NCBI GenBank assembly: GCA_004376575.1
Contig: SOJN01000023.1
Location: forward strand, 1-48,631
Direction: 5' to 3'
DNA length: 48,631 nucleotides
Origin: a candidate division TA06 bacterium
GTDB lineage: Bacteria > Hydrothermota > DG-26 > E44-bin18
Shown here: positions 7,615 through 44,826 of the stretch, one piece after another
Numbering within the stretch: the first letter of the stretch is position 1
How the letters are laid out: every line of letters starts with the position of its first letter
Made by a program: the position numbers and the translations under genes
Notes under the pieces: generated by a model
The model's database searches: none
What the model was told of the DNA's origin: nothing
Seen by the model: only the letters and a program-made list of their open reading frames with translations

Positions 7615-8190
7615 GAAACTACGAAATTCCCATCGCCCCGTCCCCCCGCCTTCGAAATTCCCGCCTACCCACCCTGCACCTTCGAAAATGGAAACGAAAT
7701 AGGCCCAGCCCGCCTGTTGGCGGGATGAGGTATATTTCGTCGTGTTTAGTCTTTGTTAGAGGTCACAAGCGAAGCTCAGTGAGCTCGTTACAAAGAGTTA
7801 ATCCTGAGGAGGCGGAAGCCGACGAAGGGCTTACTCGGATCGAAGATCACTGCCGAGCGATGGCGAAGGTTGAGTTTTAGAAAGTCTCGATCCCGAGCGT
7901 AGCCCCGAGTCTATCGAGGGGCGAAGTCTAGGGAAGTTAATCCTGCTTAGTCTCTCTTGCTGAGACGGAGTCGAAGCTTAGAGAGAATTAGTCCTGAGGC
8001 GGGGCCGAAGGGAGCCGCAGGCGAAGGGAGCGAAGCCGAGGGATCTGCTTTTCGCCGGGCCAACAACCCGACTTCTCATTGCACGTCGACAGGCTCCCTT
8101 CGGATAGCCTCAGGACAGGCGGGATAGACTCCCAGACCGCAGACTGGCAAAGTCCTCTCGGATTTCAATTTCGTAATTTCGTGTTTTGGG
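7615..8190 (+). repeat. Dispersed structured repeat, copy A (long)
   Basis: About 580 nt, in order: GGAATTTCG-type units (7615-7690, here as CGAAATTCCC), a hairpin with outer arms ACGAAATA (7694-7701) and TATTTCGT (7733-7740) and inner arms CCCGCC (7709-7714) and GGCGGG (7719-7724), a GAAG-rich body with several imperfect hairpins, and an end rich in AATTTCG (about 8164-8186). It is the inverted counterpart of 41261-41848; the main difference is a block of about 30 nt near 8091-8122 found only here. It starts about 30 nt after the nuclease stop codon and ends at the tRNA-Val. Confidence 0.85.
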
Positions 8191-26677: not shown

Positions 26678-28444
26678 CTAGAAGTCCTCGGTCGCAACAT
26701 GAACCATGTCCAAAACCTGTTTTCTGGTGAAGTTCCTATGCTGTATCGCACCTGACGGACAGGTTGCCGCACACCCACCGCAGCCTTCGCAGAGGACCTC
26801 ATTCACCACGGCCACATTTCTCTTGGGGTCCAGCTGAATCGCGTCATAGGCGCACGCATTTACACAGTATCCACATCCTGCGCAGAGTTCTTCATCCACC
26901 TCTGAGACTGTTGGATCGTGCTCCAGCTCGTCACTTGAGAAAAGGGAAATAACCTTCGCAGCAGCCCCGGAAGCCTGAGCAACCGTCTCCGGTATGTCCC
27001 TTGGCGCCTGGGCGGTGCCTGCCAGATAGATCCCCGTGGTCAAACTCTCAACAGGTCTCAGCTTCGGGTGAGCTTCTGAAAGAAATCCATGCTCATCTGT
27101 ACTGATCTTCAGCTTCTTAGCAACTTCGCCGGCACCTACAGATGGCAAGATGGCTGTGGCCAGAACCACCATGTCGGCATATATCTCTATTTTCTTTCCG
27201 GTCAGGGTATCGGCGCCCCAGACCACAACTCGCCCATCTTCTTGGAATATCTTGGAAACCTTTCCTCTGAAATAAAGGACCCCGTCCTCGTCCGTGGCTC
27301 TCTGAACGAACTCTTCATATCCTTTTCCGCCTGAGCGGATGTCTATGTAGAAGATGTATGGCTGCCCATCGTGGACTCTGTGTTTGTAGAGCATTGCATG
27401 TTTGACAGTGTACATGCAGCATATCTTTGAACAGTACGGCTGGTACCTTTCAGGCTCCCTTGAACCCGCGCACTGAACAAAAACAACCTCTTTCGGCACT
27501 TTGCCGTCCGATGGTCTCTTCACCTCTCCTCCCGTTGGTCCGGAGGCTGAAAGCAATCTCTCGAACTGGAGGCCAGTTATGACATCCGGGCAAGAGTCGT
27601 AATTGTACTCCTCGATAACCTCCTTGTTCATCACGTCGTAACCGGTGGCCACCACAATTGCGCCCACATCTTCCTCAACGATGGTGTCTTCCTCATCATA
27701 GACAATCGCCTTGGGCTGGCATACGGTTTCACATACTTTGCAGTTTCCCGTTTTGAAATACATGCAATTCTCTCTGTCTATGACTGGCGTGTTGGGGACC
27801 GCTTGGGGGAATGGAATGTAGATACATGGCCTCGTTTCAAGGCCTTCATTGAATTCAGAGAGTAGCGGGTTCACCGTTCTCTCTGAAATCTCCTCAACAG
27901 TGATCGCCCCGGTGGGACATGAATAGGCACATGCTCCGCAGGTCGTGCACACTTCCGAAAACTCCTTGTACGGTGGGGTAACCTCCATTTTTGCTCCACG
28001 GTTGGCAAAGCCAATGGCACCCACCCTCATCACCTCGTTGCATACCCTTACACACAAACCGCATAGCACGCACTTCTCTTCTTCATCCTTTGTTTTGAAT
28101 CTCGGGGCCTCAATACCCACCTTCTTCGCCAAATCCTGTATCACCTCAGAGCCGGGCGCCCTGGCCAATAGTAACTCCACAGTCACCTTACGAGCGTTCA
28201 TGGCTTTCTCTGAATCAGTTTTCACTTCCATGCCTTCTGCTACCATCTGGCCGCATGACGCAACCAGCTTGGATCGACCATTTTGAATCACCTCTACCAG
28301 ACAAACCCGACAAGCCTGATAGGGCTCGAGAGCAGGATGATAGCAGAGGGTCGGTATCTCAATACCCAGTTCCTTCGCGGCCTTCAAGATGGTCGTTCCT
28401 TCTTCGACTTCGACCTTCTGACCGTCAATGGTTAGATTTACCAT
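26678..28444 (-). CDS. NuoG(N-part)-HdrA(C-half) fusion
   Basis: 588 residues. Residues 1-95 are a NuoG/HydA-type [2Fe-2S] domain (C34, C45, C48, C64). Residues 125-135 and 166-176 are two C-x2-C-x2-C-x3-C ferredoxin motifs. From about 198 the sequence becomes the C-terminal half of HdrA: FNEGLETRPCIYIPFPQAVP, an AI-x-ATGYD motif, VITGLQFERLLSASGPTGG, CAGSREPERYQPYCSKICC, RSGGKGYEEF, HPKLRPVE, then two ferredoxin motifs at 521-531 and 552-562. The HdrA Rossmann FAD motif is absent; it occurs instead on the HdrA-NuoE fusion at 35142. No molybdopterin or H-cluster domain is present. The ATG overlaps the NuoF-GltD stop by 20 nt. Confidence 0.88.
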   Translation of the reverse strand: MVNLTIDGQKVEVEEGTTILKAAKELGIEIPTLCYHPALEPYQACRVCLVEVIQNGRSKLVASCGQMVAEGMEVKTDSEKAMNARKVTVELLLARAPGSEVIQDLAKKVGIEAPRFKTKDEEEKCVLCGLCVRVCNEVMRVGAIGFANRGAKMEVTPPYKEFSEVCTTCGACAYSCPTGAITVEEISERTVNPLLSEFNEGLETRPCIYIPFPQAVPNTPVIDRENCMYFKTGNCKVCETVCQPKAIVYDEEDTIVEEDVGAIVVATGYDVMNKEVIEEYNYDSCPDVITGLQFERLLSASGPTGGEVKRPSDGKVPKEVVFVQCAGSREPERYQPYCSKICCMYTVKHAMLYKHRVHDGQPYIFYIDIRSGGKGYEEFVQRATDEDGVLYFRGKVSKIFQEDGRVVVWGADTLTGKKIEIYADMVVLATAILPSVGAGEVAKKLKISTDEHGFLSEAHPKLRPVESLTTGIYLAGTAQAPRDIPETVAQASGAAAKVISLFSSDELEHDPTVSEVDEELCAGCGYCVNACAYDAIQLDPKRNVAVVNEVLCEGCGGCAATCPSGAIQHRNFTRKQVLDMVHVATEDF

Positions 28445-31400
28445 GCTTACTCTCTTCTAGAAATTTCTTGGCATCTTCTGTTCCCAGATCACACCGGAGA
28501 CAGCGTCTTGCTTCCTTTATTGCGATCTCCTCAGTGAATCCAAGGGTCACTTCTTTGAAATTCTTCATTCTCTCCTCGGCAGATAGAGCAGGCATTTCAG
28601 GACGTTGGGCCTGTTCTATCTCTTCGTCAGTCAGCTTAACCGATTCAACATACATTGATGGTCTGGTCACTTCATACTCTCGGGCCAGACTTTGTCCTCT
28701 TAGAAACTTATTTATTGATTCAGCAGCCGTTTTTCCTGCGCTAATAGCCTCCACAACCGTGCCAGGCCCGGTCACCACATCTCCACCAGCAAAGACCCCC
28801 GCTCGACTTGTCGTCAGTGTTTCTTCATCGACCACGACGGTATCCCACTTCGAGGTCTTGAGTTGGTCTTTCTCTGTCATGAAGGAAATATCCGGTCGTT
28901 CGCTGATGGCGGGTATCAAAGTATCTAACTCAACCGTAAACTCTGAACCTTTAATCGGAACAGGTCTTCTTCTTCCACTCTTATCTATGTCTCCCAACTT
29001 CATCCTGATACACTCAATCCCTGTCACTTTGCCGTCTTTTGTCAGTACTTTGACAGGAGCGGCAAGGAACTGTATGTCTATCCCTTCTTCAATTCCCTCA
29101 TCAACCTCTTCCTTGAAAGCAGGCATCTCTGCTCTCGTCCTTCTGTAGACAATAGTAACCTTTTCACAGTCTGGCAAACGGTTAGCAACTCTGGCTGCGT
29201 CCACCGCAGCATTTCCGCCGCCAATTATGCCCACCTTCTTTCCTATCTTGACTTCCTTGCCCAGATTAACAGCCTTCAAAAACTCTATTGAGTCAAGCAC
29301 GCCCTCTGCGTCTTCGTTGGGGATATTAAGCTTCAGGCTTTTGTGAGCTCCGATGGCAATAAATATTGCCTTAAACCCTTCTTCAAGCAAACCATCGATG
29401 GATATGTCCTCGCCCAATGCAGTATTCGTTTCTATCTTGACTCCTGCATTCTTGATTGACTCTACATCAAAACTGAGAACCTCTCTTGGTAGACGGTGGT
29501 GTGGTATTGCTATGGCCAGCATCCCTCCGACTTCGGGGAGAGCTTCGAAGACCGTAGTACCATATCCGTTGAGAGTGAGATAGTAGGCGCAGGTAAGGCC
29601 GGCTGGACCAGATCCTATAACAGCGACTCTTTCCTCTTTGGAACGTTCAGGTTTGGCAACGCTTTCTATATTCGATTCCATCGCGAAATCAGTAAGAAAT
29701 CGCTTTATCGTCCTGATCGCAATTGGATCCCCTCCTTCGCTTGCCTTGCATCTGTATTCACAAGGGTGATGGCAAACACGTCCACAGACACTTGGGAGGG
29801 GATTGTCCTTTCGGACTACGTCAAAAGCTTCCTTAAACTTCCCCTGGGCGGCTAGAGCTATATAGACAGCCGCTTCTGTGTCTATGGGGCAAGTGTGTTG
29901 ACAGGGGGAGGACACTATTTCCGTACACACTGCTGCGGAACATCTTTTTTGTCTTATGTGTGCTTCGTATTCGTTTCTGAAATACCGAATGGTGCTCAGC
30001 ACTGGATTGGGAGCAGTACTGCCAAGGCCGCAAAGGGAGCCATCAACTATGGCGTGTCCTAATTCTTCAAGTAGGTCGACGTCACCGTTCTTGCCTCGTC
30101 CCTCGCATATCTCAGTCAATATGTCCAACATTCTCTCAATACCTTCCCGACAAGGGGTGCATTGCCCGCAAGACTCGTCCAGGGTGAAGGTAAGAAAATA
30201 CCTGGCTACGTCAACCATGCAGGTGGTTTCATCCATCACTACCATTCCGCCTGAACCCATTATGGATCCTATTTTCGCCAGCTCTTCATAGTCCACTTGT
30301 AGGTCTAACAGGTCCGAAGGAATGCAGCCTCCAGATGGCCCGCCTGTCTGCACAGCCTTAAACTTCTTGTTGTCCGGAATTCCACCACCAATATCGTAAA
30401 TGATCTCACGAAGAGGTATGCCCATGGGAACTTCCACCAGCCCTGTATTGTTTATCTTCCCCACCAAAGAGAAAACCTTCGTTCCCTTACTGGTCTCAGT
30501 GCCGATATCTGAGAACCATTTGGCTTTCCTGAGAATTATGGGGGGAACATTTGCCCAGGTCTCCACATTATTGATGTTGGTGGGCTTGCCCCAGAGCCCC
30601 TTCTCTGCCGGATAAGGCGGACGAGGACGAGGACGACCCGCCCTACCCTCAATCGATGCCATGAGTGCCGTCTCCTCACCGCAAACAAATGCTCCGGCGC
30701 CTCTATGGATACTGACTTCGAAATCGAAATCGGTGCCAAGCATATTCTTCCCCAAGAGGCCGTAGTCCCTTGCCTGCTCAACTGCCCTGGTCAGCCTTTC
30801 CAATGCCAGAGGATACTCATTTCTTATGTATACGAAACCATGAGAAGAGCCAATAGCCTTGGCCCCAATTGTCATGCCCTCCAAGACGGAGTGTGGATCA
30901 GATTCAATAATACAGCGATCCATATATGCACCTGGATCACCCTCATCCGCGTTGCAGATTATGTATTTCTCGTCTCCAGGAGAACTTCTGGCCAGTTCCC
31001 ATTTTCTCCCAGTTGGAAAACCAGCTCCTCCTCTTCCCCGCAAGCCGGAATCCTTGACCTCTTGTACTATCTCCTCCGGGCTCATCGAAGTGAGGGCTTT
31101 AGCCAGGGCCCTATATCCGTCTCGAGCAATATATTCTTCGATGTTCTCGGGATCTATCAATCCCCGGTTTCGCAAAACAATCAATCTCTGCTTTGCGAAG
31201 AAACCAATGTCACTCATCTTCGGAATCGGCATCTCCCACTCCGAAGGAGTGTACATCAACCTTTTTACAGGTCTACCCTTGAGCAGATGCTCTTCCACCA
31301 AGTGAGGGATATCCTCCTTGGTAAACAACTGGTAGAATATGCCATCAGGCTGTACTATCATAATGGGGCCTTGCGCACACACACCCATACAACCAATGGA

Positions 31401-31532
31401 GGCAACCAGAACCTCATCTTCCAGGTCAAATCGTCTGATCTCGTTCTCCAGAGCCCCCCTCACATCGAAACCCGCATTGGAGGCGCACCCAGAGCCCGAA
31501 CAAACCATGACATGAGTCCTATATCTTTCCAT
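28425..31532 (-). CDS. NuoF-GltD fusion (NADH-binding subunit joined to a glutamate-synthase-small-chain-like FAD domain)
   Basis: 1035 residues. Residues 1-90 are a thioredoxin-like [2Fe-2S] domain (C11, C16, C48, C52). Residues about 110-520 are NuoF/HydB/HndC: GRGGAGFPTGRKW (FMN/NADH), CNADEGDPGAYMDR, GAGAFVCGEETAL, GKPTNINNVET, and a [4Fe-4S] site at C455, C458, C461 and C501. Residues about 530-1020 are GltD/NfnB-like: a cysteine-rich Fe-S lead (C531 to C595), FAD motif GSGPAG (640-645) and a second dinucleotide motif GGGNAAVDAAR. By family knowledge NuoF-type subunits of bifurcating enzymes oxidise or reduce NAD(H), and the GltD part could bind a second NAD(P)H. It is the entry point for nicotinamide electrons. 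Confidence 0.9.
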   Translation of the reverse strand: MERYRTHVMVCSGSGCASNAGFDVRGALENEIRRFDLEDEVLVASIGCMGVCAQGPIMIVQPDGIFYQLFTKEDIPHLVEEHLLKGRPVKRLMYTPSEWEMPIPKMSDIGFFAKQRLIVLRNRGLIDPENIEEYIARDGYRALAKALTSMSPEEIVQEVKDSGLRGRGGAGFPTGRKWELARSSPGDEKYIICNADEGDPGAYMDRCIIESDPHSVLEGMTIGAKAIGSSHGFVYIRNEYPLALERLTRAVEQARDYGLLGKNMLGTDFDFEVSIHRGAGAFVCGEETALMASIEGRAGRPRPRPPYPAEKGLWGKPTNINNVETWANVPPIILRKAKWFSDIGTETSKGTKVFSLVGKINNTGLVEVPMGIPLREIIYDIGGGIPDNKKFKAVQTGGPSGGCIPSDLLDLQVDYEELAKIGSIMGSGGMVVMDETTCMVDVARYFLTFTLDESCGQCTPCREGIERMLDILTEICEGRGKNGDVDLLEELGHAIVDGSLCGLGSTAPNPVLSTIRYFRNEYEAHIRQKRCSAAVCTEIVSSPCQHTCPIDTEAAVYIALAAQGKFKEAFDVVRKDNPLPSVCGRVCHHPCEYRCKASEGGDPIAIRTIKRFLTDFAMESNIESVAKPERSKEERVAVIGSGPAGLTCAYYLTLNGYGTTVFEALPEVGGMLAIAIPHHRLPREVLSFDVESIKNAGVKIETNTALGEDISIDGLLEEGFKAIFIAIGAHKSLKLNIPNEDAEGVLDSIEFLKAVNLGKEVKIGKKVGIIGGGNAAVDAARVANRLPDCEKVTIVYRRTRAEMPAFKEEVDEGIEEGIDIQFLAAPVKVLTKDGKVTGIECIRMKLGDIDKSGRRRPVPIKGSEFTVELDTLIPAISERPDISFMTEKDQLKTSKWDTVVVDEETLTTSRAGVFAGGDVVTGPGTVVEAISAGKTAAESINKFLRGQSLAREYEVTRPSMYVESVKLTDEEIEQAQRPEMPALSAEERMKNFKEVTLGFTEEIAIKEARRCLRCDLGTEDAKKFLEESKHGKSNH

Positions 31533-31916
31533 TTACGACACTCGCTCGCTTCCTATGGCTATTGCATGCTCTGTAACTATCTTCCCCCCGATTACATGCT
31601 CAGAAAAAATCTTCTGAATCTTCTCCTCTGTCAAATCAACATACTTCACAGGCGCTTCGCCCTTTAGTTCAACTGTAGCCATGGGCTCCCTACTGCACAG
31701 CCCAGCACAGCCAGATGTGGTAAGAATGATGTCCTTTGCATCACTCTCTTCAAGCAGTGCCATCAAGGTGCTCATTATCTTCCTCGCCCCAGCAGCTATC
31801 CCGCAGGTCCCCATGTGAACTGTAATCTTTGCCTTGCCTGCCCCCTCACGCAGCATGGTCATCTTCCTCATTCTCTCTCTAATCTTTTCCAAATCTTCGG
31901 GTCTCAGCTTAGGCAT
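31533..31916 (-). CDS. HndB-like thioredoxin-fold [2Fe-2S] ferredoxin, copy 1
   Basis: 127 residues from ATG 31916 (an in-frame TTG lies one codon earlier). The fold is that of HndB/NuoE-C-terminal ferredoxins: VHMGTCGIAAGARK with C38, then LTTSGCAGLCSREP with C70 and C74. The three-cysteine set is as I remember HndB. It lies directly before the NuoF-GltD gene, where HndB-type subunits normally sit. It is nearly identical to the protein at 34752, with a stretch of 246 identical nucleotides (31641-31886). Divergence is limited to both ends, which looks like gene conversion or recent duplication. Confidence 0.88.
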   Translation of the reverse strand: MPKLRPEDLEKIRERMRKMTMLREGAGKAKITVHMGTCGIAAGARKIMSTLMALLEESDAKDIILTTSGCAGLCSREPMATVELKGEAPVKYVDLTEEKIQKIFSEHVIGGKIVTEHAIAIGSERVS

Positions 31917-31922
31917 CAATGC

Positions 31923-32357
31923 TCACTCGTTTTTGCTATCTTCGATTTTCTCGTACTTGTATACGAACTCAATGTCAGGATTGCCGGCCCTCAAGATCCT
32001 CATAGTCTCAGGAATATCGCCCAGAGGCTTGCGATCAGGGTGGCTGTGCTGGAACGTAGCCTTGACTCTGGTCCCTATGCCGACCTTTGACTCTATCTCA
32101 ATATCTCCACCGCTCTGTCTTGCCGCTTGGGCTAGAAGGGGAAGTCCCAGTCCCACTTTTCTAACGCTCTTGGTAGTGAAGAATGGATCTAGCACTTTCT
32201 CGAGCCTCTCTTCGCTCATACCCTGGCCATTGTCTTTAATCTCAACCAAAAGCAGGTCTTTCTCCATGTCTTCGACAACCGTTATTTCAACCCTACTTGC
32301 AGAAACAGCGATTGAATTCTCCACAATGTCAAGAATATGCAAGGATATGTCCTCCAC
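31923..32357 (-). CDS. Small HATPase_c (anti-sigma/histidine-kinase-type ATPase)
   Basis: 144 residues consisting of a single GHKL ATPase domain: N-box (LDIVENSI), DNGQGM (G1), the lid region PFFTTKSVRKVGLGLPLL (G2), and GIGTRVKATF. There is no dimerisation or phosphoacceptor domain, so it is not a full histidine kinase; SpoIIAB/RsbW-type kinases look like this. The GTG at 32357 is three bases after the PHP stop, but GGAGG inside codons 1-3 would better serve a TTG at 32342. Genes of this type recur next to HydABC/Nuo-type iron-sulfur flavoproteins; their target is unknown. Confidence 0.8.
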   Translation of the reverse strand: MEDISLHILDIVENSIAVSASRVEITVVEDMEKDLLLVEIKDNGQGMSEERLEKVLDPFFTTKSVRKVGLGLPLLAQAARQSGGDIEIESKVGIGTRVKATFQHSHPDRKPLGDIPETMRILRAGNPDIEFVYKYEKIEDSKNE

Positions 32358-32360
32358 AAG

Positions 32361-33101
32361 TTAGTGGGTCACCGCCTTTCTCCCGTCTCTGTTCAGCAAG
32401 GCCTTGCTTAACTCATCAACGCTAAGATTTTCAGTAAAGAAAGAAGTATACGTTTCTCCTATGTCTTCCAAATAGTGCGCATCAGAGAACCTAACTATCG
32501 GAAAATCATTCACCTGAGGTAACCTTGCTTTCACCTCTTTCACGGGATTCCGCGGCGACACTTCCAGAGCGTCTATGTTCAACCCGTCAGGGATGAATCC
32601 AAGCTGGCCGATGATGCTGAAGGCTTCGCGGTCAACATGCGATGCAATTGCTATGCCGCCGGATTTGTGGACGATATCGACAATCTGTTCAATCAGAAGT
32701 GTGGTCGCCCCGATCAATAGCCTATCATTGATGCCCATTATACTGTCATTTTCATCTACGACCAGCTGTTCTCCAAAGTAGTCTTGATCATTTACTCCAG
32801 ATAAATGTTTGTAGACTATATCTTGAACACGGAGTAAATCTGCATCGTTTTCGAACAGAGCTAATACATGTACCTCTTCTTGCGACGTTATTTCAATTCC
32901 ACCAATGACTACAACGCCTACCCTTTCCCCTGCTTTCTTCACTGCCGGAACATTCTCCGCTGAATTATGATCACAGATAGCGATCACATCCAGGTTCTTT
33001 TTCTTGGCTTGTCCGACTATCAGAGTGGGTAGCATATTGTTGTCACCACAAGGAGAAAGGCACGTATGAATGTGTAGATCCCCCTTAAACTGATCCACCA
33101 T
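32361..33101 (-). CDS. PHP-domain phosphoesterase
   Basis: 246 residues from ATG 33101, which overlaps the DRTGG gene stop. A longer frame starting at 33149 would add a hydrophobic lead but overlap the DRTGG gene by 65 nt. PHP motifs are clear: GDLHIHTCLSPCGDN, AICDHNSAENV, GGIEITSQEEVHVLALF, and ASHVDREAFS. The family uses two or three metal ions to hydrolyse phosphoesters, often nucleotides. In this five-gene set it may turn over a signalling nucleotide, but that is inference. Confidence 0.85.
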   Translation of the reverse strand: MVDQFKGDLHIHTCLSPCGDNNMLPTLIVGQAKKKNLDVIAICDHNSAENVPAVKKAGERVGVVVIGGIEITSQEEVHVLALFENDADLLRVQDIVYKHLSGVNDQDYFGEQLVVDENDSIMGINDRLLIGATTLLIEQIVDIVHKSGGIAIASHVDREAFSIIGQLGFIPDGLNIDALEVSPRNPVKEVKARLPQVNDFPIVRFSDAHYLEDIGETYTSFFTENLSVDELSKALLNRDGRKAVTH

Positions 33102-33444
33102 CACCGACCCCGCGAACACCAAGATCATGCAGCCTACCAATAATCTCAAAGGCAGGCAGCTTACTCACCAGGATCGGGATGCCTTCGGTTTCAGCCTTCC
33201 TAATAGTTTCTTCCTCCGGATGCCTTCCGTTGACCAACAAAATTCCAGACACACGATTCAAGGAGGCGACGGCAACTATGTTCAGATGAATCTGAAGGGT
33301 AACCCAGATATTTCCCTCTCTACTATTGGCAATGACATCGCTCAGAAGATCGCTCGCATATCCTCCCCTTACTTCATTGTCGAGTTTGCTCGATCCGCAC
33401 ATGACTTCCAGATTCAGCTTATCGACTATCTCATTCAGTTTCAT
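33085..33444 (-). CDS. DRTGG-domain protein 1
   Basis: 119 residues. The DRTGG domain is seen in VRGGYASDLLSDVIANSREGNIWVTLQIHLNIVAVA when read in two parts: the A/G-SDLLSDV core and the following V-T-x-Q strand, then IPILVSKLPAFEIIGRLHDLG. DRTGG domains occur with CBS pairs and in phosphotransacetylase and are thought to bind small ligands. A second, diverged family member lies two genes upstream. The product is small and soluble and overlaps the PHP gene. Confidence 0.8.
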   Translation of the reverse strand: MKLNEIVDKLNLEVMCGSSKLDNEVRGGYASDLLSDVIANSREGNIWVTLQIHLNIVAVASLNRVSGILLVNGRHPEEETIRKAETEGIPILVSKLPAFEIIGRLHDLGVRGVGDGGSV

Positions 33445-33447
33445 GTC

Positions 33448-34371
33448 TCAATCCTTACGGTGTATGTTGATAGTGACCTTCAGACGCGTCCCCTTACCTA
33501 CGGTTGAAGTAAGGTCCATGACATCGGCACATTTCTTGATATTGCTTAGCCCCATGCCTGCCCCAAATCCCATTTCTCTGATCCATTCAGTTGCAGTTGA
33601 GTAGCCGGGTTGCATAGCTTTCTCAACATCGGGAATGCCGGGACCCGAATCTATAGCTTCGATCTGTATTCGATGTGGTTCTATGTTGACCAGAATCTCC
33701 CCACCTTCGCCATAGATGACCATGTTCATCTCTGCTTCGTAGGTAGCAACTGCCGCCCTGCGTATGATTCGAGGATGGACATTGAGGTGCTTTAAAGCCC
33801 TTTTGAGTCCGCTTGCGCTTGCACCGGCATTCTGGAAATCCCGGCCCGCTATGCGGAACTCCAACACAAGGCTAACCTTATTGGCAACTATCTCCTCAAA
33901 GATGCGACTCACTGAGTGATTCTGATCCTCCTCTTCGCGCCGAATAATGGCCAGCTTTTCCAGTAACCCTTGCACAATTGTACCTTTGGTGATGATCCCT
34001 ATTACTCTTCTATCTTTGCGTGTAATCACCGGGAATCGGCCAAATCCGTGTTTCTCAAACTTCTCAACAGCACTAACAAGCGAATCATCTACGTACACGC
34101 CTTCCACATCGCTGGTCATCCTCTGCGCAACCGAAGTGTCTGGCTGCCCTTCAGCTAACCAATCGATGAAGTCTTGAAGGCTAATGATCCCAACTAACTC
34201 ATCTCCGTCTACAACGGGCGCTCCTGAAATATGACCGGACCGGAGTATGTCTCTGAGTTCGCTCATTTTCGTCTCTACCGGAATCGAAATCACAACATGC
34301 TTCATCACATCGCTCACGGTCAGTTCATACAGTAACTCTTGAACCTTCGTGACTCTCTTCTCTTCAGCCAA
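33448..34371 (-). CDS. CBS-pair plus HATPase_c regulatory protein
   Basis: 307 residues from a TTG start that directly abuts the upstream stop. Residues about 18-70 and 80-137 form a CBS pair (VVISIPVETKMSEL, GAPVVDGDELVGIISLQDF, then RFPVITRKDRRVIGIITKG). Residues about 160-305 are a GHKL ATPase (NMVIYGEGG region, DSGPGI, GFGAGMGLSNIKKCADVM, GKGTRLKVTI) of the RsbW/SpoIIAB type. CBS pairs commonly sense adenine nucleotides or NAD(H), so this may be an energy- or redox-gated protein kinase. It lies between the two DRTGG genes in a tight run. Confidence 0.85.
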   Translation of the reverse strand: MAEEKRVTKVQELLYELTVSDVMKHVVISIPVETKMSELRDILRSGHISGAPVVDGDELVGIISLQDFIDWLAEGQPDTSVAQRMTSDVEGVYVDDSLVSAVEKFEKHGFGRFPVITRKDRRVIGIITKGTIVQGLLEKLAIIRREEEDQNHSVSRIFEEIVANKVSLVLEFRIAGRDFQNAGASASGLKRALKHLNVHPRIIRRAAVATYEAEMNMVIYGEGGEILVNIEPHRIQIEAIDSGPGIPDVEKAMQPGYSTATEWIREMGFGAGMGLSNIKKCADVMDLTSTVGKGTRLKVTINIHRKD

Positions 34372-34734
34372 CTAGAAACCTTTCTCAAAGTCGGAGCAGC
34401 CGGGCAACCCAGCCTTATACAACCTCCCGCAGGACTCATACATGAGAAGGTCGGTTGAGAGCAGCACAATCTTCTTTTCCTCAGCTAACCTTTTCGTATC
34501 CTCAGGGGGTTTCTTGCCTCTTGCGAAGCAGATTGCTATTATGCCGGCCACCTCTGCCGTGCGAACGCACTGAGGATTTACCAATCCAGTTAGGAGTATC
34601 GAGTCCGATTTGATGAAGGCCAGTACGTCACTCATCAGATCAGAGCCGCATGCCATCTTCACTTCCTTCTGAAGGTCTTCCGCTCCGACAATCACCTTTG
34701 CTTCAAGAATCTGTTTTATCTTCTCTAATCTCAT
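34372..34734 (-). CDS. DRTGG-domain protein 2
   Basis: 120 residues, a diverged paralogue of the DRTGG protein at 33085. The core reads KMACGSDLMSDVLAFIKSDSILLTG, where ACGSDLMSDV replaces the family's G-G-x-x-SDLLSDV, followed by IAICFARGKKPPE and ending VLLSTDLLMYESCGRLYKAGL. It likely binds a small ligand. It begins 17 nt after the second HndB-like ferredoxin gene and abuts the CBS-HATPase gene. Confidence 0.75.
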   Translation of the reverse strand: MRLEKIKQILEAKVIVGAEDLQKEVKMACGSDLMSDVLAFIKSDSILLTGLVNPQCVRTAEVAGIIAICFARGKKPPEDTKRLAEEKKIVLLSTDLLMYESCGRLYKAGLPGCSDFEKGF

Positions 34735-34751
34735 TCGGATGCTCCTCCTGC

Positions 34752-35135
34752 CTATGACACCTGCTCGCTTCCTATGGCTAAGGCGTGTTCAGTGACTATC
34801 TTCCCCCCAATTACGTGCTCAGAAAAAATCTTCCGAATCTTCTCCTCTGTCAAATCAATATACTTCACAGGCGCTTCGCCCTTTAGTTCAACTGTAGCCA
34901 TGGGCTCCCTACTGCACAGCCCAGCACAGCCAGATGTGGTAAGAATGATGTCCTTTGCATCACTCTCTTCAAGCAGTGCCATCAAGGTGCTCATTATCTT
35001 CCTCGCCCCAGCAGCTATCCCGCAGGTCCCCATGTGAACTGTAATCTTTGCCTTGCCTGCCCCCTCACGCAGCATGGTCATCTTCCTCATTCTCTCTCTA
35101 ATCTTCTCCAGGTCTTCAGGTTTCAGCTTCGGCAT
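34752..35135 (-). CDS. HndB-like thioredoxin-fold [2Fe-2S] ferredoxin, copy 2
   Basis: 127 residues with C38, C70 and C74 as in copy 1 at 31533. The two proteins differ at only a handful of positions (R/K5, V/I93, Q/R98-region and near the C-terminus). Bases 34860-35105 are identical to 31641-31886. It follows the HdrA-NuoE fusion by 6 nt, so each Nuo-type fusion has its own HndB-like ferredoxin next to it. The two copies bracket the five-gene signalling module as direct repeats. Confidence 0.88.
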   Translation of the reverse strand: MPKLKPEDLEKIRERMRKMTMLREGAGKAKITVHMGTCGIAAGARKIMSTLMALLEESDAKDIILTTSGCAGLCSREPMATVELKGEAPVKYIDLTEEKIRKIFSEHVIGGKIVTEHALAIGSEQVS

Positions 35136-35141
35136 CGATAG

Positions 35142-36419
35142 TTACCCGCCTTTGTACTTTTTCAGTATTGTGGGAATCTTTACCTGTCTTACCTTACCGT
35201 ACAAGTCGTCTCCAACTGTGACCACTGGTGCCAGGCCGCAGCAACCAAGACAGCGAACAGTCTCCAAGCTGAAATTCATGTCTTCTGTAGTCTGGCCTGC
35301 TTCAATGTTCAAGTCCTCCTCGACTCTCTCCAGCAATCTAGCTCCCCCCTGTACGTGGCAGGCAGTGCCGAGACAGACATTTATTGTGTATTTTCCCCTC
35401 GGCTCTAAGCTGAAAGCGTTGTAGAACGTAGCTATTTCGTACAGCTTGGACACAGGTATATCCAGCCTCTCGGCCACATAGAGAAGGGTTTCTTTGGGTA
35501 GGTAGTTGAACTCAGAGTTTATGTCCTCGAGAATGGGTATTTCGACCCCTTCTCCACCTTCGTATTTTCCTATTATCTCATCTAGCCTTGCCAGCAACTC
35601 TTTCTCTATGGCTGGAGCAATCGAAGGGACTTCAGGAATCTCAGGCCTGTTCCTCACAAGACAGTTGGTCCAGCAGTCTCCGCAGCCTGTGCACTTCTCC
35701 ATATCTACTGATCTCGCCTTTTTCTTAATCTTCGCCTTGAAATTGCCCACATAGCCTGAGATCTCCTCGAGTTCAGAGTACGTATGCAGTTTGATCAAGG
35801 GATTCTGGGCCACCTCGACCATCTTTGGGGTCATTATGCATTGAGAGCAGTCAAGGGTGGGAAATGTCTCTGAGAGCTGAGCCATGTGCCCGCCAATTGA
35901 AGGGTCCTTTTCAACGAGCAGGGTTTCATAGCCGCTGTTGGCGATGTCTAGTGCAGCCTGCATCCCAGCGATGCCGGCCCCGACTACAAGGGCTTTCTTG
36001 GTAACAGGGACCTTCACCGGTATCAAAGGTATATTCCTGCTCGCCTTCTCCACCATGGCCTGTATCAACTTGATCGCCTTGGCAGTCGCTTTCTCTCTGT
36101 CGTCATGGACCCAGCTGCACTGCTCTCTTATGTTAGCTTCTTCTAGGAGATATGGATTCAGCCCCGCGGACTGGGCAGCGCGCCGAAAAGTCGTCAGGTG
36201 GAGGTTAGGCGAACATGCCGCCACAACTACAGCGTCAAGCTCGTCATCTTCAATCGATTTTTTGATGAGGTTCTGTCCGGGATCCGAACACATGTATTGG
36301 TAGTGCTCGGCCCTCACAACTCCCGGATACTCGGCCAACTGTCGAGCTGCATGCGCAACATCAACGTTGGTCGCGATATTTATCCCGCAGTGGCATACAA
36401 AAACACCAATTTTCTTCAA
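35142..36419 (-). CDS. HdrA(N-half)-NuoE fusion
   Basis: 425 residues. Residues 1-130 are the HdrA N-terminal domain (VFVCHCGINIAT, MCSDPGQ, VVVAACSPNLHLTTFR, ANIREQCSWVHDD). FAD motif GAGIAG is at 147-152, then SIGGHMAQLSETFPTLDCSQC and one ferredoxin motif C243-x2-C-x2-C-x3-C253. The HdrA part stops there. Residues about 270-425 are NuoE: a helical bundle (FNYLPKETLLYVAERL, VSKLYEIATFYNAFSL), then C349-x4-C354 and C390-x3-C394 for [2Fe-2S]. The missing HdrA C-half is on the fusion at 26678. The start is TTG with AAAGGA about six bases upstream. It has its own promoter and is the first gene of the main redox operon. Confidence 0.9.
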   Translation of the reverse strand: MKKIGVFVCHCGINIATNVDVAHAARQLAEYPGVVRAEHYQYMCSDPGQNLIKKSIEDDELDAVVVAACSPNLHLTTFRRAAQSAGLNPYLLEEANIREQCSWVHDDREKATAKAIKLIQAMVEKASRNIPLIPVKVPVTKKALVVGAGIAGMQAALDIANSGYETLLVEKDPSIGGHMAQLSETFPTLDCSQCIMTPKMVEVAQNPLIKLHTYSELEEISGYVGNFKAKIKKKARSVDMEKCTGCGDCWTNCLVRNRPEIPEVPSIAPAIEKELLARLDEIIGKYEGGEGVEIPILEDINSEFNYLPKETLLYVAERLDIPVSKLYEIATFYNAFSLEPRGKYTINVCLGTACHVQGGARLLERVEEDLNIEAGQTTEDMNFSLETVRCLGCCGLAPVVTVGDDLYGKVRQVKIPTILKKYKGG

Positions 36420-36774: not shown

Positions 36775-37094
36775 GGCGCAGCAATCTCGGATTTCAATTT
36801 CGCAATTTCGTGTTCTTGGCTCGATTTTCGGCCGACCGGGGGGTGATGACGCCCTACTCACCACACGATAAAGAAGCGTGTCATTGCGAGGAGCGTTAGC
36901 GACGAAGCAATCTGGCACAAGCAGATCCTTCGGCTCCGTCCTTCGGACTCCGCTCCCTTCGGCGTTGCCTCAGGACTAATTCTTTCTAAAACTCGACCTT
37001 CGCCGACACTCGGTCTCGTTAAGAAAGACTAAGCACGACGAAATATGCCTCACTCCGTCCAAGGACGGATTGGCCCTATTTCGTTTTCGATTTT
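36775..37094 (-). repeat. Dispersed structured repeat, copy C (rearranged)
   Basis: Same orientation as copy B. The hairpin has outer arms ACGAAATA (37038-37045) and TATTTCGT (37077-37084) and inner arms CCGTCC (37055-37060) and GGACGG (37063-37068). It lies 27 nt past the hdrB stop codon. One stem module follows: TCTTTCT (36981-36987) and AGAAAGA (37022-37028). Much of the body is missing, and a different repeat (36878-36912, ATTGC/GCAAT palindrome of the CATTGCGAGGAGC type) sits inside. The AATTTCG-rich far end (about 36780-36815) is kept. Confidence 0.75.
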
Positions 37095-37110
37095 CGATGT
37101 ACAGGGGGTG

Positions 37111-38046
37111 TTACAGGAGATGCTTTTCCGCAAGCAGTGATCGGGGATCCACGTAATGGAGCTCGAAATTGCAGGGCTCCTCACCAAGGCCCAGGGCAAT
37201 GCAGAGCAACTGGGTGAAATAGAAAACTGGAATTGGCTTGAAGTCGCCGTACCTCTTCCCCACCTCTTTCTGTCTTCTGTCCAGGTTGAAGTGGCACAGA
37301 GGACACGTGGTGGATATTGCATCGGCTCCACGTTTGACCGCGGAGGAAAGAATCCTGTAGGCGTGTTCGACGACCAGGTCTACATCCACCACCGTGTGAT
37401 AGGTGCCACAGCACTCAGTCTTGTATGGGTCGTCAACCACCTGGGCTCCCGTAGCGCTTAACAGCTCCTCCATTATCGTGGGATTCTCCTGACTGTCGAG
37501 TGCTATCTCTTTCGGCCTCAGAAGAAGGCACCCATAGTAGGGAGCTATTTTCAAAGAGGAAAGAGGCTTGGATATTTTCTCGGCCATATTACCGAACCCA
37601 ACCTCATCTCTTATCGCCTCCAGAAGGTGGAGAACCGCCACGTCCCCTTCATAGTCAGGTTCCTCATACATGAAGCTGTTTATCTTGCCCTTCTTCTCTT
37701 CATCATTCCTGATTATGTTGTTGACCGACTTTTGAGTATTGTAACAGATCGAACAGAGAGTCACAAAACGGTCGTACCCACTCTCCTTTGCTCTTATGAG
37801 GTTTCTCACTGCGGCCAGGTTGTTGATTATGTTATCGTTTGCCAGAGAGTGGACTGTACCGCAGCAGTTCCATCTCTCGAGTTCGACGAGTTCCAGACCA
37901 AGGGCTTTTGCTGCTGCTATGGCCGACATTTCAAGCCCTGTGCCTGTAGTCTTGAGAGTGCATCCGGGGTAGTATGCGATTTTGATACTTGATTGTTTAG
38001 CTTCTGTCTCCTGCTGGGGAGTCTGAAGTGTTGATTCCGGGCTCAT
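37111..38046 (-). CDS. hdrB: Heterodisulfide reductase subunit B-like protein
   Basis: 311 residues with two CCG domains (C-x31/39-CC-x35/36-C-x2-C). The first reads YYPGCTLKTTG, ERWNCCGTVHS, TLCSICYN; the second reads YYGCLLLRP, KTECCGTYHT, TTCPLCHFN. In methanogens HdrB holds the noncubane [4Fe-4S] clusters that reduce the CoM-S-S-CoB disulfide; bacterial versions act on unknown disulfides or simply relay electrons. It has an unusual hydrophilic lead of about 20 residues. It is 4 nt or so after hdrC. The main HdrA-containing block starts about 690 nt further on, under its own promoter. Confidence 0.92.
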   Translation of the reverse strand: MSPESTLQTPQQETEAKQSSIKIAYYPGCTLKTTGTGLEMSAIAAAKALGLELVELERWNCCGTVHSLANDNIINNLAAVRNLIRAKESGYDRFVTLCSICYNTQKSVNNIIRNDEEKKGKINSFMYEEPDYEGDVAVLHLLEAIRDEVGFGNMAEKISKPLSSLKIAPYYGCLLLRPKEIALDSQENPTIMEELLSATGAQVVDDPYKTECCGTYHTVVDVDLVVEHAYRILSSAVKRGADAISTTCPLCHFNLDRRQKEVGKRYGDFKPIPVFYFTQLLCIALGLGEEPCNFELHYVDPRSLLAEKHLL

Positions 38047-38049
38047 GGC

Positions 38050-38457
38050 TTATCCTGTGAACTTTCTAAGGCAGCTCACTATTCCGGCCTGTGGAAGGCC
38101 CTCAAAGGTCTTCTCATCAATCTCATACGGTTTCACCTTGTCCACGTTCGCCCTGAGGATTATCTGCCTGGCTGCCTCCATCACTTTTGCAACATCAATC
38201 CCCTTGGGACACCTCGACTCGCAAGTGAAACAACTGTCACACACCCAGATGGTCCTGCTGGCAAGGACTTCATCCTTCTCGCCTATCTGGAGAAGCCTTA
38301 TTATCTGGTTCGGCAGTATGTCCATCGAATCGACACTGGGGCAACCCGCTGAGCACTTTCCACACTGGAAGCACTTAGAAATCTGCTCACCACTGATTTC
38401 TTCAATCCTGGCTATGACTTCATCTCTCAGCTTTTTGCGTGATATCCTTACTCTCAT
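38050..38457 (-). CDS. hdrC: Heterodisulfide reductase subunit C-like protein
   Basis: 135 residues with the two HdrC ferredoxin motifs CFQCGKCSAGCP (about residue 29-40) and CDSCFTCESRCP (about 73-84). By family knowledge HdrC passes electrons from HdrA to HdrB. No membrane segment is present, so the complex should be soluble. It begins 41 nt after the MBL-fold gene, with no promoter I can see in between, so it may be read through from the tpiA operon. Confidence 0.92.
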   Translation of the reverse strand: MRVRISRKKLRDEVIARIEEISGEQISKCFQCGKCSAGCPSVDSMDILPNQIIRLLQIGEKDEVLASRTIWVCDSCFTCESRCPKGIDVAKVMEAARQIILRANVDKVKPYEIDEKTFEGLPQAGIVSCLRKFTG

Positions 38458-40025: not shown

Positions 40026-40373
40026 TTATTCTCCGGTTGATTCTGGTTCTTCTTGTATGGGCTCAAGGGGCACCAGTCCCTCCTCAGCAGGGGCAAAGGG
40101 ACCTCTTTGCATTTCTCCTTCCACTGCGCTGCGTGGAGCCCTCCTGGACGCGGATATCAAAGTAAGAGACAAAGAAGTCAGCATAAACAAGACTGCGAAC
40201 ACGACAGTCGCCTTGGCAAGCACGGGTGTTGCACCTCTGCCCCCGAACACCGACTGCGAACCTCCGCCTCCAAATACGCCGGAGAGGCCTCCACCTTTTC
40301 CGCGCTGCAGTAGAGTGACTATGACCAGACATGCGGACACCAGAATATGGATTGGAAGCACGATAGAAAACAC
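40026..40373 (-). CDS. secG: Preprotein translocase subunit SecG
   Basis: 115 residues with two membrane helices (about 3-20 and 52-72) and the SecG core VTLLQRGKGGGLSGVFGGGGSQSVFG between them. The tail (about 80-115) is longer than usual and acidic. It supports the SecYE channel. The GTG start overlaps the tpiA stop codon by one base, the common tpiA-secG pairing. Confidence 0.92.
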   Translation of the reverse strand: MFSIVLPIHILVSACLVIVTLLQRGKGGGLSGVFGGGGSQSVFGGRGATPVLAKATVVFAVLFMLTSLSLTLISASRRAPRSAVEGEMQRGPFAPAEEGLVPLEPIQEEPESTGE

Positions 40374-41137
40374 TATGCAATGACCTCCAACGACTTCTCG
40401 ATTATTTCAAGAAATGACTCGGCCTCAAGGCTTGCTCCTCCAACGAGAAAACCATCTATATCGGCCTCTTTCATCAGGATAGAGGCATTGTCTCGTTTCA
40501 CGCTCCCACCGTATTGGATTCTCAGCAATTGTGATATCTCCTCATCATAGAGTTCCTTGAGAAGAGACCTTATGAACGAATGAACCTCCTGGGCCTGTCC
40601 AGGTGTTGCCGTCTTCCCGGTCCCGATTGCCCAAACAGGTTCATAAGCAACCACTACAGACCTTACTTCACTGGTGGAGATCCCAACCATACATTCTCTG
40701 ATTTGCCCTCCCACCACAGCTTCCATCTTCCCCGCTTCTCTCTGCTTGAGAAGTTCACCGACACAGAGAATCGTCTTCAACCCGACTGAGAGAGAACTCT
40801 TTAGCTTTTTGTTTACGGTGTGGTTGGTCTCTCCGAAGTATTGTCTCCTTTCGGAGTGCCCGATTATAGCATAGTCGCAACCACTGTCAACAGCAAACTT
40901 CGGCGAAATCTCGCCTGTGAAGGCACCTTCCATCTCCCAGTAAACATTCTGTGCGGCAAGATGAATAGAGCTGCCTTTGATGGAGTCTCTGACTGCAGTG
41001 AGAGATGTGAAAGGAGGTGCCACGCCGATCTCTATTCTGTCAGTGGCTATTTTCCTGGCAATTGAACCAGCCAGCTCTCTTGCCTCGCCAATAGTCTTGT
41101 TCATCTTCCAGTTGCCAAATATGATGGGTGTTCTCAT
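40373..41137 (-). CDS. tpiA: Triosephosphate isomerase
   Basis: 254 residues, normal length. Active-site elements are intact: FGNWKMNKT (Asn, Lys), IIGHSERR (His), VVAYEPVWAIGTGKTA (Glu and loop 6), then IQYGGSVKRDN and FLVGGASL. It interconverts dihydroxyacetone phosphate and glyceraldehyde 3-phosphate. GGAGAAGGA precedes the ATG. It is the first gene of the run tpiA-secG-rplU-rpmA-MBL-hdrC-hdrB. Confidence 0.98.
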   Translation of the reverse strand: MRTPIIFGNWKMNKTIGEARELAGSIARKIATDRIEIGVAPPFTSLTAVRDSIKGSSIHLAAQNVYWEMEGAFTGEISPKFAVDSGCDYAIIGHSERRQYFGETNHTVNKKLKSSLSVGLKTILCVGELLKQREAGKMEAVVGGQIRECMVGISTSEVRSVVVAYEPVWAIGTGKTATPGQAQEVHSFIRSLLKELYDEEISQLLRIQYGGSVKRDNASILMKEADIDGFLVGGASLEAESFLEIIEKSLEVIA

Positions 41138-41260: not shown

Positions 41261-41848
41261 CAAAATACGAAACTACGAAACTGCGAAATTGAAATCCAAG
41301 AGGACTTTGCCAGTCTTCGGTCTGGGAGTTTATGCCCAGCCTGTCGACGTGCAAAGAGAAGTCGGGTTGTTGGCCCGGCGATAAGCAGATCCTTCGGCTT
41401 CGCTCCCTTCGCCTGCGGCTCCCTTCGGCCCCGCCTCAGGACTAATTCTCTCTAAGCTTCGACTCCGTCTCAGCAAGAGAGACTAAGCAGGATTAACTTC
41501 CCTAGACTTCGCCCCTCGATAGACTCGGGGCTACGCTCGGGATCGAGACTTTCTAAAACTCAACCTTCGCCATCGCTCGGCAGTGATCTTCGATCCGAGT
41601 AAGCCCTTCGTCGGCTTCCGCCTCCTCAGGATTAACTCTTTGTAACGAGCTCACTGAGCTTCGCTTGTGACCTCTAACAAAGACTAAACACGACGAAATA
41701 TGCCTCATCCCGCCAACAGGCGGGGGGGGCCTATTTCGTTTCTATTTTCGAAGGTGGGTGGAAGGGTTGAGCGGAATTTCGAGGGTGCGCGCTGGGAAGA
41801 TGGAAATTTCTGAGGTGGGGGGACGGGTCGATGGGAATTTCGTAGTTG
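41261..41848 (-). repeat. Dispersed structured repeat, copy B (long), inverted relative to copy A
   Basis: Reverse complement of copy A (7615-8190) over nearly its whole length. On the minus strand the order is: GGAATTTCG-type units (41848-41745), hairpin with outer arms 41732-41739 and 41693-41700 and inner arms CCCGCC (41709-41714) and GGCGGG (41719-41724), then the GAAG-rich body. The body holds stem modules TCTTTGT/ACAAAGA (41637-41643, 41677-41683) and TCTCTCT/AGAGAGA (41447-41453, 41476-41482). It ends with the AATTTCG-rich end (about 41261-41296). It fills the spacer between gpsA and tpiA. Confidence 0.85.
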
Positions 41849-42898: not shown

Positions 42899-43525
42899 TT
42901 AACCTCTGTCTTGCTGGAGTTTCTTTTCCCAGGAGAACTTGGGCTCCTTGCCCCTGCAGAGTCTTTTGATGTTGGCTGAATGCCTCATGATGACGACGAG
43001 AGTGGCTACCAATGCAAAAACCAGCAGACCTGGAGAGAACTCGGAGAAAGCCAAGCTTCGTGAAATATAAAGAAACACTGGCAAGGATATTGCTCCGGCA
43101 ACTGAGGCGAGCGAAACCCACCGAAAGCTCAGGAAAACAATGAGCCACACCCCAAAAGCCACAGCTGAAGCGATTGGCGCCAGACCGATGAAGACCCCGA
43201 GGCTCGTTGCAACCCCCTTTCCTCCCTTGAACTTGAGGATTGGCGTGAACATGTGTCCTGCAATTGCACCAACACCAGCAGCGATCCCTGCGTTCGTGTT
43301 GAACAGCAGTTTGAAAATGAGTGCCGGCAAAAGCCCTTTCATGACATCAAAGAAAAACACAAAAATCCCGGGGCCTTTACCCACAACTCTTATTACGTTG
43401 GTGGCACCTATGTTTCCGGAACCGTGCTCCCTGATGTCAGTCCGCCGCAGCAGTTTGACCACGATAAAACCGAAGGGTATGGAGCCGGGAATGAATCCTG
43501 CTATGAAGGCGATGATGTATATCAC
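42899..43525 (-). CDS. plsY: Glycerol-3-phosphate acyltransferase PlsY
   Basis: 208 residues, an integral membrane protein with about five helices. The three PlsY motifs are present: SIPFGFIVVKLLRRTDIREHGSGNIGATN in two adjoining parts (S-I-P-F-G and GSGNIGATN), KGGKGVATSLGVFIG, and the RHSANIKRLCRGKEPK end. It transfers an acyl group from acyl phosphate to glycerol 3-phosphate. It overlaps der by 4 nt (ATGA) and precedes gpsA by 2 nt. Confidence 0.96.
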   Translation of the reverse strand: MIYIIAFIAGFIPGSIPFGFIVVKLLRRTDIREHGSGNIGATNVIRVVGKGPGIFVFFFDVMKGLLPALIFKLLFNTNAGIAAGVGAIAGHMFTPILKFKGGKGVATSLGVFIGLAPIASAVAFGVWLIVFLSFRWVSLASVAGAISLPVFLYISRSLAFSEFSPGLLVFALVATLVVIMRHSANIKRLCRGKEPKFSWEKKLQQDRG

Positions 43526-44826
43526 TTTTTCCTCGCTACCGACAATCTGATGGGCGTTCCCACAAACCCAAAGTCATGTCTGATGTTCTTCTCGAGGTAT
43601 CTAAGGTAACCTTTTGAAATGCCTGCTGGCAGATTTGAGAAGAGGAGAAATCTGGGAGGAGAGACGCCCTTCTGTTCGCATCCGGTTATTCTCACCCACT
43701 TCCCACCATAAGCCGGTGGCTTGGACCTCTCGACGGCCCGCTCAATAGTTTCCGCCAGCCTTTTCTTCTTCACCCTGGCACTACTCTCTACGGCCGCTTC
43801 AATTGCAGCCTCAAGCACCCTCTCCAGTCCGGATCCAAGTAAGGCCGACGTGGGAATCACTGACGCATATGGGACAAAAGAAAATCCGTTGTGATAGGCT
43901 TTCGACAGGTCCCTTTTTTTTGCACTCTTAAGAAGATCAATCTTGTTGGCGACAACGACCAGACATTTGCCGTAGTGCCTTGAACTGACTGCTATCCTCT
44001 TGTCCTGTTTGGTGGGGCCTTCACTCGCATCTGTTATCAGAACCGTCACGTCGCTCTCCTGTATGGACCTGAGAGTTCTTATGGTACAGAAGTATTCCAA
44101 GGACTCCTTGACTTTGGTCCTTTTCCTCAGACCGGCTGTGTCAACCAAGACCAGTTTCTTCCCGTCAAAATAGAGAGAGGTGTCGATGCTGTCCCTTGTG
44201 GTCCCTGGTTTTTCATCCACTATTAGTCTCTCCTCCTGCACGAGGTGATTGACAAAGGATGACTTGCCAACGTTCGGCCTCCCGACGACTGCGATCCTTA
44301 TTCCAGCCACAACTGGCCCTACTTCTCTCCTGGGAATTTTGGAGACGAGGATATCGAGAAAGTCCCCAACTCCCAGGCCATGGGCAGCACTGACAGGGAT
44401 GGGATCTGATAGACCAAGCTGATAGAACTCATCCACCAGTCTCGTGTCCTGCATCCTGTCAACTTTGTTCACCACCAGAAGACAGGGTTTGTCCGACTTT
44501 CTCAGGCTGGTTGCTATCTCCTTCTCTATGGGATTCGCACCTTCACGACCATCTGTTAGAAAGACGACCAGGTCTGACTCACCTATCGCCAGTTCAACCT
44601 GACGTTTGACCCTGGCCTCCATGCCCGTGACACTGCTGGGTATGAAACCTCCTGTATCTGCAACCAGGAATCTTGTTCCCGCCCAATCGGCCTCAGCGTA
44701 CTTTCTGTCTCTTGTCACACCGGGGAGATCGTCCACAACCGCCTCTCGCTTCTTCACAATTCGATTGAAGAGCGTGGACTTCCCCACATTAGGCCTGCCC
44801 ACAATAGCCACTACTGGAAGACTCAT
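43522..44826 (-). CDS. der: Ribosome-assembly GTPase Der (EngA)
   Basis: 434 residues with two tandem GTPase domains and a C-terminal KH-like domain. Domain 1: GRPNVGKSTLFNRI, a T in LPGVTRDRKY, DTGGFI, NKVD. Domain 2: GRPNVGKSSFVNHL, PGTTRDSIDT, DTAGLRKRTKVKESLEYF, NKIDLL. The KH part ends KNIRHDFGFVGTPIRL. It acts in late 50S maturation. It is the first gene of der-plsY-gpsA, 56 nt after the large secreted protein gene, with no clear promoter in the gap. Confidence 0.97.
   Translation of the reverse strand: MSLPVVAIVGRPNVGKSTLFNRIVKKREAVVDDLPGVTRDRKYAEADWAGTRFLVADTGGFIPSSVTGMEARVKRQVELAIGESDLVVFLTDGREGANPIEKEIATSLRKSDKPCLLVVNKVDRMQDTRLVDEFYQLGLSDPIPVSAAHGLGVGDFLDILVSKIPRREVGPVVAGIRIAVVGRPNVGKSSFVNHLVQEERLIVDEKPGTTRDSIDTSLYFDGKKLVLVDTAGLRKRTKVKESLEYFCTIRTLRSIQESDVTVLITDASEGPTKQDKRIAVSSRHYGKCLVVVANKIDLLKSAKKRDLSKAYHNGFSFVPYASVIPTSALLGSGLERVLEAAIEAAVESSARVKKKRLAETIERAVERSKPPAYGGKWVRITGCEQKGVSPPRFLLFSNLPAGISKGYLRYLEKNIRHDFGFVGTPIRLSVARKK

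Follow-up and report, generated by a model that had tools for sequence, protein, structure and literature searches.

What does it mean when two copies of a gene, identical over 246 nucleotides (nt), stand on either side of five other genes of the same operon? The question is raised by a candidate division TA06 bacterium (GTDB lineage Bacteria; Hydrothermota; DG-26; E44-bin18), in which two hndB genes bracket a module of signalling-type genes in an energy-metabolism operon of Hdr and Nuo proteins. The window, that is, the whole stretch of DNA analysed (48,631 nt; contig SOJN01000023.1 of assembly GCA_004376575.1), corresponds to contig C23 in its entirety; the draft genome measures 3.0 Mb in 150 contigs, with an estimated completeness of 97%. 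The operon genes described here lie on the reverse strand of the window. The arrangement is best read as an older duplication of part of the operon followed by the recent gene conversion of one hndB core, to which we give a probability of roughly 0.78.

An Identical Core between Diverged Ends

Both hndB genes are open reading frames of 127 codons with a match to the thioredoxin-like 2Fe-2S profile PF01257. Copy 1 (34,752–35,135; 26.0 bits against a cut-off of 24.8) is flanked by a fusion gene of the N-terminal half of hdrA with nuoE on one side and by the first DRTGG gene of the module on the other, a position that is matched in the nearest relative of the operon. Copy 2 (31,533–31,916; 27.0 bits) lies between the HATPase gene of the module and nuoF, with its stop codon TAA abutting the nuoF ATG. 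It most likely begins with the ATG at 31,916, which corrects a TTG at 31,919. No third hndB copy was found in this genome.

Comparison of the two sequences places the longest identical run at 34,860–35,105 in copy 1, taken as the minimal conversion tract, and at 31,641–31,886 in copy 2. The run measures exactly 246 nt, as the original prediction had it to the base, and the copies are direct repeats with a spacing of 3,219 nt, bearing out the 3.2 kb given there. The predicted content of the interval also agrees with the Pfam assignments, which are DRTGG, CBS plus HATPase_c, DRTGG, PHP plus PHP_C and HATPase_c.

Within the coding sequence, the copies differ at 6 of 30 nt in the 5´ end, at none of the 246 nt of the core and at 13 of 105 nt in the 3´ end (19 of 135 for both ends together). 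The differences fall mainly at third codon positions, and the ends are homologous and in frame. When 19 differences were scattered randomly over 381 sites, the longest identical run had a mean of 66 and a maximum of 217 in 200,000 draws, and a run of 246 was never attained. Furthermore, among the sites that vary between the two copies and the nearest relative, the copies differ from each other at 0 of 34 core sites versus 19 of 32 end sites (Fisher p = 2e-8). An over-long run of identity, with homologous but diverged sequence on either side, is the pattern by which gene conversion is recognized.

A Relative with an hndB Remnant at the Second Position

The nearest relative of the operon, locus L033, is found on contig SOKM01000310.1 of the metagenome-assembled genome 'Candidatus Cloacimonadota' E44_bin80 (the same contig as G007:C102). 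Its gene order is hdrA–nuoE, hndB, DRTGG, CBS-HATPase, DRTGG, PHP, HATPase and nuoF, with a single hndB in the first position. The L033 HATPase protein ends in YKYKKTGSERGS immediately before its stop, its C-terminus being replaced by an HndB remnant; HndB proteins usually end in GSE plus one further residue (R, K, T or Q). The last 24 nt of the L033 HATPase gene, ACAGGAAGTGAGCGAGGGTCATAA, are followed by the nuoF ATG, as are the last 24 nt of hndB copy 2 in the window, ATAGGAAGCGAGCGAGTGTCGTAA, and the two ends show four mismatches. The next best match to that 24-nt end in the L033 contig, on both strands and with hndB itself excluded, has eight. An HndB-like end is absent from all 45 other HATPase ends listed. 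We read the 24 nt as what is probably left of a second hndB that once separated HATPase from nuoF and whose deletion spared the stop/start junction with nuoF.

The relative ages of duplication and homogenization were estimated from third positions in codons whose amino acid is unchanged. The two hndB genes differ at 12 of 40 such positions in the ends and at 0 of 82 in the cores; between the window and L033, the cores show 22 differences in 75. Because the ends of the paralogues match the divergence between the operons while their cores show no change, the duplication appears to be old and the homogenization young: by this clock, the copies would have split about as long ago as the operons of the window and L033, with the core homogenized only recently. 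The 3´ end of the L033 hndB shows 15 differences to copy 2 versus 23 to copy 1, although a single relative cannot polarize the core.

Gene Order across Loci

The comparison was extended to 91 other loci, comprising 80 from genome_contigs together with those from genomes of the same phylum, with duplicates removed. Each of them carries exactly one hndB, so that two copies occur in the window only. The module precedes hndB in 56 of the 91 loci (four of these without nuoF in the fetched stretch) and follows nuoF in 14. Its placement between hndB and nuoF is seen in L033 alone among the 91, and otherwise only in the window. In a further 20 loci no module is present in the fetched stretch, in several cases owing to a short contig. 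Since the place of the module relative to hndB and nuoF varies in this way, it must have moved relative to the nuoE–hndB–nuoF core more than once, and the window looks like an intermediate state.

Alternative Explanations

Nucleotide-level purifying selection, through an RNA element or a codon constraint, could also hold the two cores identical, and the core does code for the cysteine-bearing, well-conserved part of the protein. The probability of this explanation is close to nil, however, since the L033 hndB departs from the window core at 34 of its 246 positions, 26 of which are third codon positions (with the synonymous differences given above), and the hndB of another locus, L034, does so at 77. 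Because the core is evidently free to change, its identity in the window must stem from a recent common origin, and constraint can be counted as refuted by these comparisons unless it is peculiar to this species. Recent common origin might still mean that one hndB fragment was lately copied to a second place, with the differing ends being older or acquired at the junctions, as the absence of any difference over 246 nt would allow. Two observations make such a very recent duplication unlikely: at the ends, where the copies differ, both carry homologous hndB sequence that stays in frame and is changed mainly at third positions, and L033 carries an hndB remnant at the second position. Full-length copies must predate the homogenization because the ends are of this kind. 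The original prediction had left the choice between gene conversion and very recent duplication; the diverged ends and the remnant favour conversion, acting on an older duplication, and disfavour the other.

It is quite improbable that the arrangement was created during assembly, either by a short-read assembler fusing hndB–module–nuoF and module–hndB–nuoF populations through the 246-nt stretch or by the mispolishing of one core. The genome is a draft of 150 contigs, and an exact repeat longer than common k-mer sizes is a classical site of misassembly. Against this, the window contains no N, the gene-to-gene junctions are tight on all four sides of the copies, and L033 independently shows both the hdrA–nuoE/hndB/DRTGG order and the hndB 3´ remnant between HATPase and nuoF. 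A chimeric contig is argued against because L033 separately supports both junctions, the first hndB directly and the second through the remnant, and the assembly concern seems largely answered. Highly improbable, in turn, is a functional switch, in which the direct repeats would be kept identical as a means of deleting or multiplying the signalling module by recombination. The same holds for its population form, in which ongoing recombination would keep the hndB repeats identical and the module would be reversibly lost or amplified, as a rheostat for a putative electron-bifurcating operon. Direct repeats of 246 nt are long enough for RecA-dependent recombination, a deletion would leave one intact hndB, and operons without the module, with hndB near nuoF, do exist in distant bacteria (the 20 of 91 loci above, several on short contigs). 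These operons are nevertheless distant and bear no signature of excision, and no deletion or amplification allele of the present operon was found; in particular, an allele lacking the module and retaining a single chimeric hndB, which the original prediction suggested looking for in related genomes, is absent from 147 genomes of the phylum and from the 80 genome_contigs loci. The deletion that is seen, in L033, took the second hndB and left the module in place. Moreover, no transposase or site-specific recombinase gene lies between the copies, where the five genes are DRTGG, CBS-HATPase, DRTGG, PHP and HATPase. The loop-out proposed in the original prediction is thus possible in principle but unsupported.

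Proposed History of the Locus

Duplication followed by gene conversion would have proceeded as follows. A partial duplication of the operon, during a change of gene order, would have placed hndB on both sides of the five-gene module, after which both copies would have diverged. Recently, at least 246 nt of one copy would have been overwritten by homologous recombination from the other, as non-reciprocal gene conversion, presumably inside the cell rather than by double crossover with the DNA of another cell. A possible route would start from an HdrA–NuoE/HndB/NuoF/module order, with HndB–NuoF–module duplicated in tandem; if the first NuoF and the second module were then lost, the order of the window would result, and that of L033 would follow from a window-type arrangement by loss of the second hndB. 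This history calls for no special function of the repeat. Each hndB gene appears intact, and the two would provide one and the same HndB subunit to an NAD(H)-linked Hdr/Nuo-type (Bfu-like) complex.

Several points weigh against this history. The remnant could in principle derive from an ancestor with hndB at the second position only, followed by separate gains at the first. The collections hold a single close relative of the operon, and the relative age rests on the remnant and on a few end sites (45 codons). The evidence consists of assembled contigs, not of reads. Finally, within the window the tandem-duplication route shows no trace of either a second nuoF or a second module.

Probable Transfer of the Operon Core

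The window and L033 form a pair in every tree, with SH-aLRT (Shimodaira–Hasegawa-like approximate likelihood-ratio test) support of 100 for NuoF, 99 for the module and 96 for HndB. The nearest outside relatives vary by gene: L034 and L138 for HndB, L139 for the module (100% SH-aLRT), with NuoF placed without resolution. Given this disagreement, the trees fix neither the position of the operon nor its route. A possible origin of the operon is as a hybrid of two operon types.

According to the kinship table, the genome of the window and that of L033 (G007) share the phylum only. Their housekeeping proteins are correspondingly distant, with identities of 42% for a Der/EngA-type GTPase (43,522–44,826), 52% for triosephosphate isomerase (40,373–41,137) and 61% for ribosomal protein L27 (39,159–39,416). 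The operon proteins from hdrA–nuoE to nuoG–hdrA show 67–89% identity to L033, with unsaturated third positions, whereas the upstream hdrC- and hdrB-like proteins show 46–51%, with third positions near saturation. Of the genomes sampled from the order and class of the window genome, none has a close hndB. The operon core has probably moved between lineages, because its proteins are far closer than the housekeeping and upstream proteins and because the same order and class have no close hndB. As a consequence, the age comparison dates the split of operon lineages and not that of species. Within the hdrA–nuoE gene (35,142–36,419), at about residues 130–195, identity to L033 climbs from 44–50% to 69–81%. 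This rise, together with the low identity of the hdrB- and hdrC-like genes, may mark a recombination breakpoint of the transferred core.

The Proteins of the Operon

Invariant cysteines stand at positions 38, 70 and 74 of HndB in all 93 of the 93 sequences compared, with no counterpart of the fourth ligand seen in thioredoxin-like [2Fe-2S] proteins. HndB accordingly lacks the four cysteine ligands of the NuoE type, and PF01257 is barely above its cut-off. Among solved structures, HndB comes closest to the N-terminal parts of HoxF/NfnB/HydB-type subunits, for example 8oh5_B. The label of ferredoxin, given to HndB in the original prediction, is doubtful on account of its three invariant cysteines, from which a structural role, or else a cluster with unusual ligands, would be expected.

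The operon is predicted to encode a Bfu-like set of NuoE, NuoF and the N-terminal part of NuoG, joined to HdrB- and HdrC-like subunits. A BfuC-like (NuoE) and BfuB-like (NuoF) core is present (PF01257, E 3e-49; Complex1_51K, NADH_4Fe-4S and SLBB). By profile matches, nuoF (28,425–31,532) is a nuoF–gltD fusion with an N-terminal 2Fe-2S domain, the NADH/FMN-binding 51-kDa domain and a part resembling the glutamate synthase small subunit; this NuoF–GltD-like fusion is shared with several distant loci and not with L033, so that it comes and goes. Upstream, an HdrB-like protein has two CCG cysteine-rich domains (37,111–38,046; PF02754, E 4e-22), and an HdrC-like protein is of the 4Fe-4S dicluster type (38,050–38,457; PF13183, E 9e-12). 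The non-coding stretch at 36,820–37,110, like those at 7,672–8,189 and 41,383–41,751, has about 60 partial matches across the contigs of the genome and belongs to an interspersed intergenic repeat family.

The sequence of HdrA is divided, with the NuoF, HndB and module genes lying between its two parts. Profile matches assign its N-terminal third (HdrA2 profile 1–257) to the fusion with NuoE, and the rest (259–642) to a fusion with the N-terminal part of NuoG (26,678–28,444). The split point lies between two HdrA cysteine motifs, which we take to be within the ferredoxin-like insert of HdrA structures. HdrA is divided in this way in at least 21 loci, from several phyla, and no description of an HdrA split around Nuo genes was found in the literature searched, a search of limited depth. 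A second HdrA(N)–NuoE gene is found in the same genome (L167; contig C128, 1,707–4,761) with the NuoG–HdrA(C) gene directly after it and no nuoF, hndB or module between; its complex perhaps borrows NuoF from elsewhere. Conversion between the NuoG domains of the operon and this paralogue (77% identity versus 49–58% in neighbouring domains) was considered and rejected, as the identity of L033 to the paralogue is likewise 76%.

The module comprises a DRTGG-domain protein (34,372–34,734; PF07085, E 2.1e-6), a protein with two CBS domains and an HATPase domain (33,448–34,371; PF00571, PF02518), a second DRTGG-domain protein (33,085–33,444; PF07085, E 5.3e-6), a PHP-domain phosphoesterase-like protein whose gene overlaps the 3´ part of the preceding one (32,361–33,110; PF02811, PF13263) and a stand-alone HATPase_c protein (31,923–32,357; PF02518, E 9.1e-17). 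The nearest NCBIfam model to the second of these is that of anti-sigma F factor (TIGR01925), at 48.5 bits and far under the cut-off of 135. The whole set (31,923–34,734) recurs with Nuo-type operons in many phyla. It is hardly mentioned in the literature searched, in which no paper combined at least three of DRTGG, HATPase, hydrogenase and PHP domain; a lone paper with DRTGG and hydrogenase was unrelated.

Significance

The locus offers a readable snapshot of gene-order change in a bacterial operon, in which part of the operon was duplicated and the duplicated gene homogenized while both copies persist; its sister L033 shows the loss of one copy, of which 24 nt survive as part of the adjacent gene. 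The locus also carries two warnings, namely, that the identity of repeats alone gives no date for a duplication and that repeats bracketing a module need not have a function. The operon itself, with HdrA split around a Nuo-type set and a recurrent, little-studied module, merits more attention than the repeat.

Comparison with Known Systems

The case is one of known processes, cleanly documented, and of ordinary evolution. Gene conversion between duplicated bacterial genes has been reported, for example, in Mycobacterium tuberculosis (PMC12046097, PMC1762029). The likeness lies in a short identical tract within otherwise diverged paralogues; the difference is that metabolic paralogues internal to an operon here bracket a regulatory-looking module in an uncultured bacterium.

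In the Hnd hydrogenase of Solidesulfovibrio fructosivorans, HndB probably has no redox centre (PMC10084766). Both systems have a small NuoE-related subunit beside a NuoF-like subunit. Unlike in Hnd, however, hndB here adjoins Hdr and NuoG–HdrA genes, with no hydrogenase gene, and is present in two copies.

Finally, the Bfu (HydABC-like) family of electron-bifurcating enzymes includes types combined with HdrA (PMC9304861). The operon resembles Bam-Bfu in that a set of NuoE, NuoF and the N-terminal part of NuoG is joined to an HdrA-type module. It differs from the Bfu enzymes described there in having HdrA in two halves, each fused to a Nuo part, and in that these halves enclose a regulatory-looking module of five genes together with two copies of hndB.

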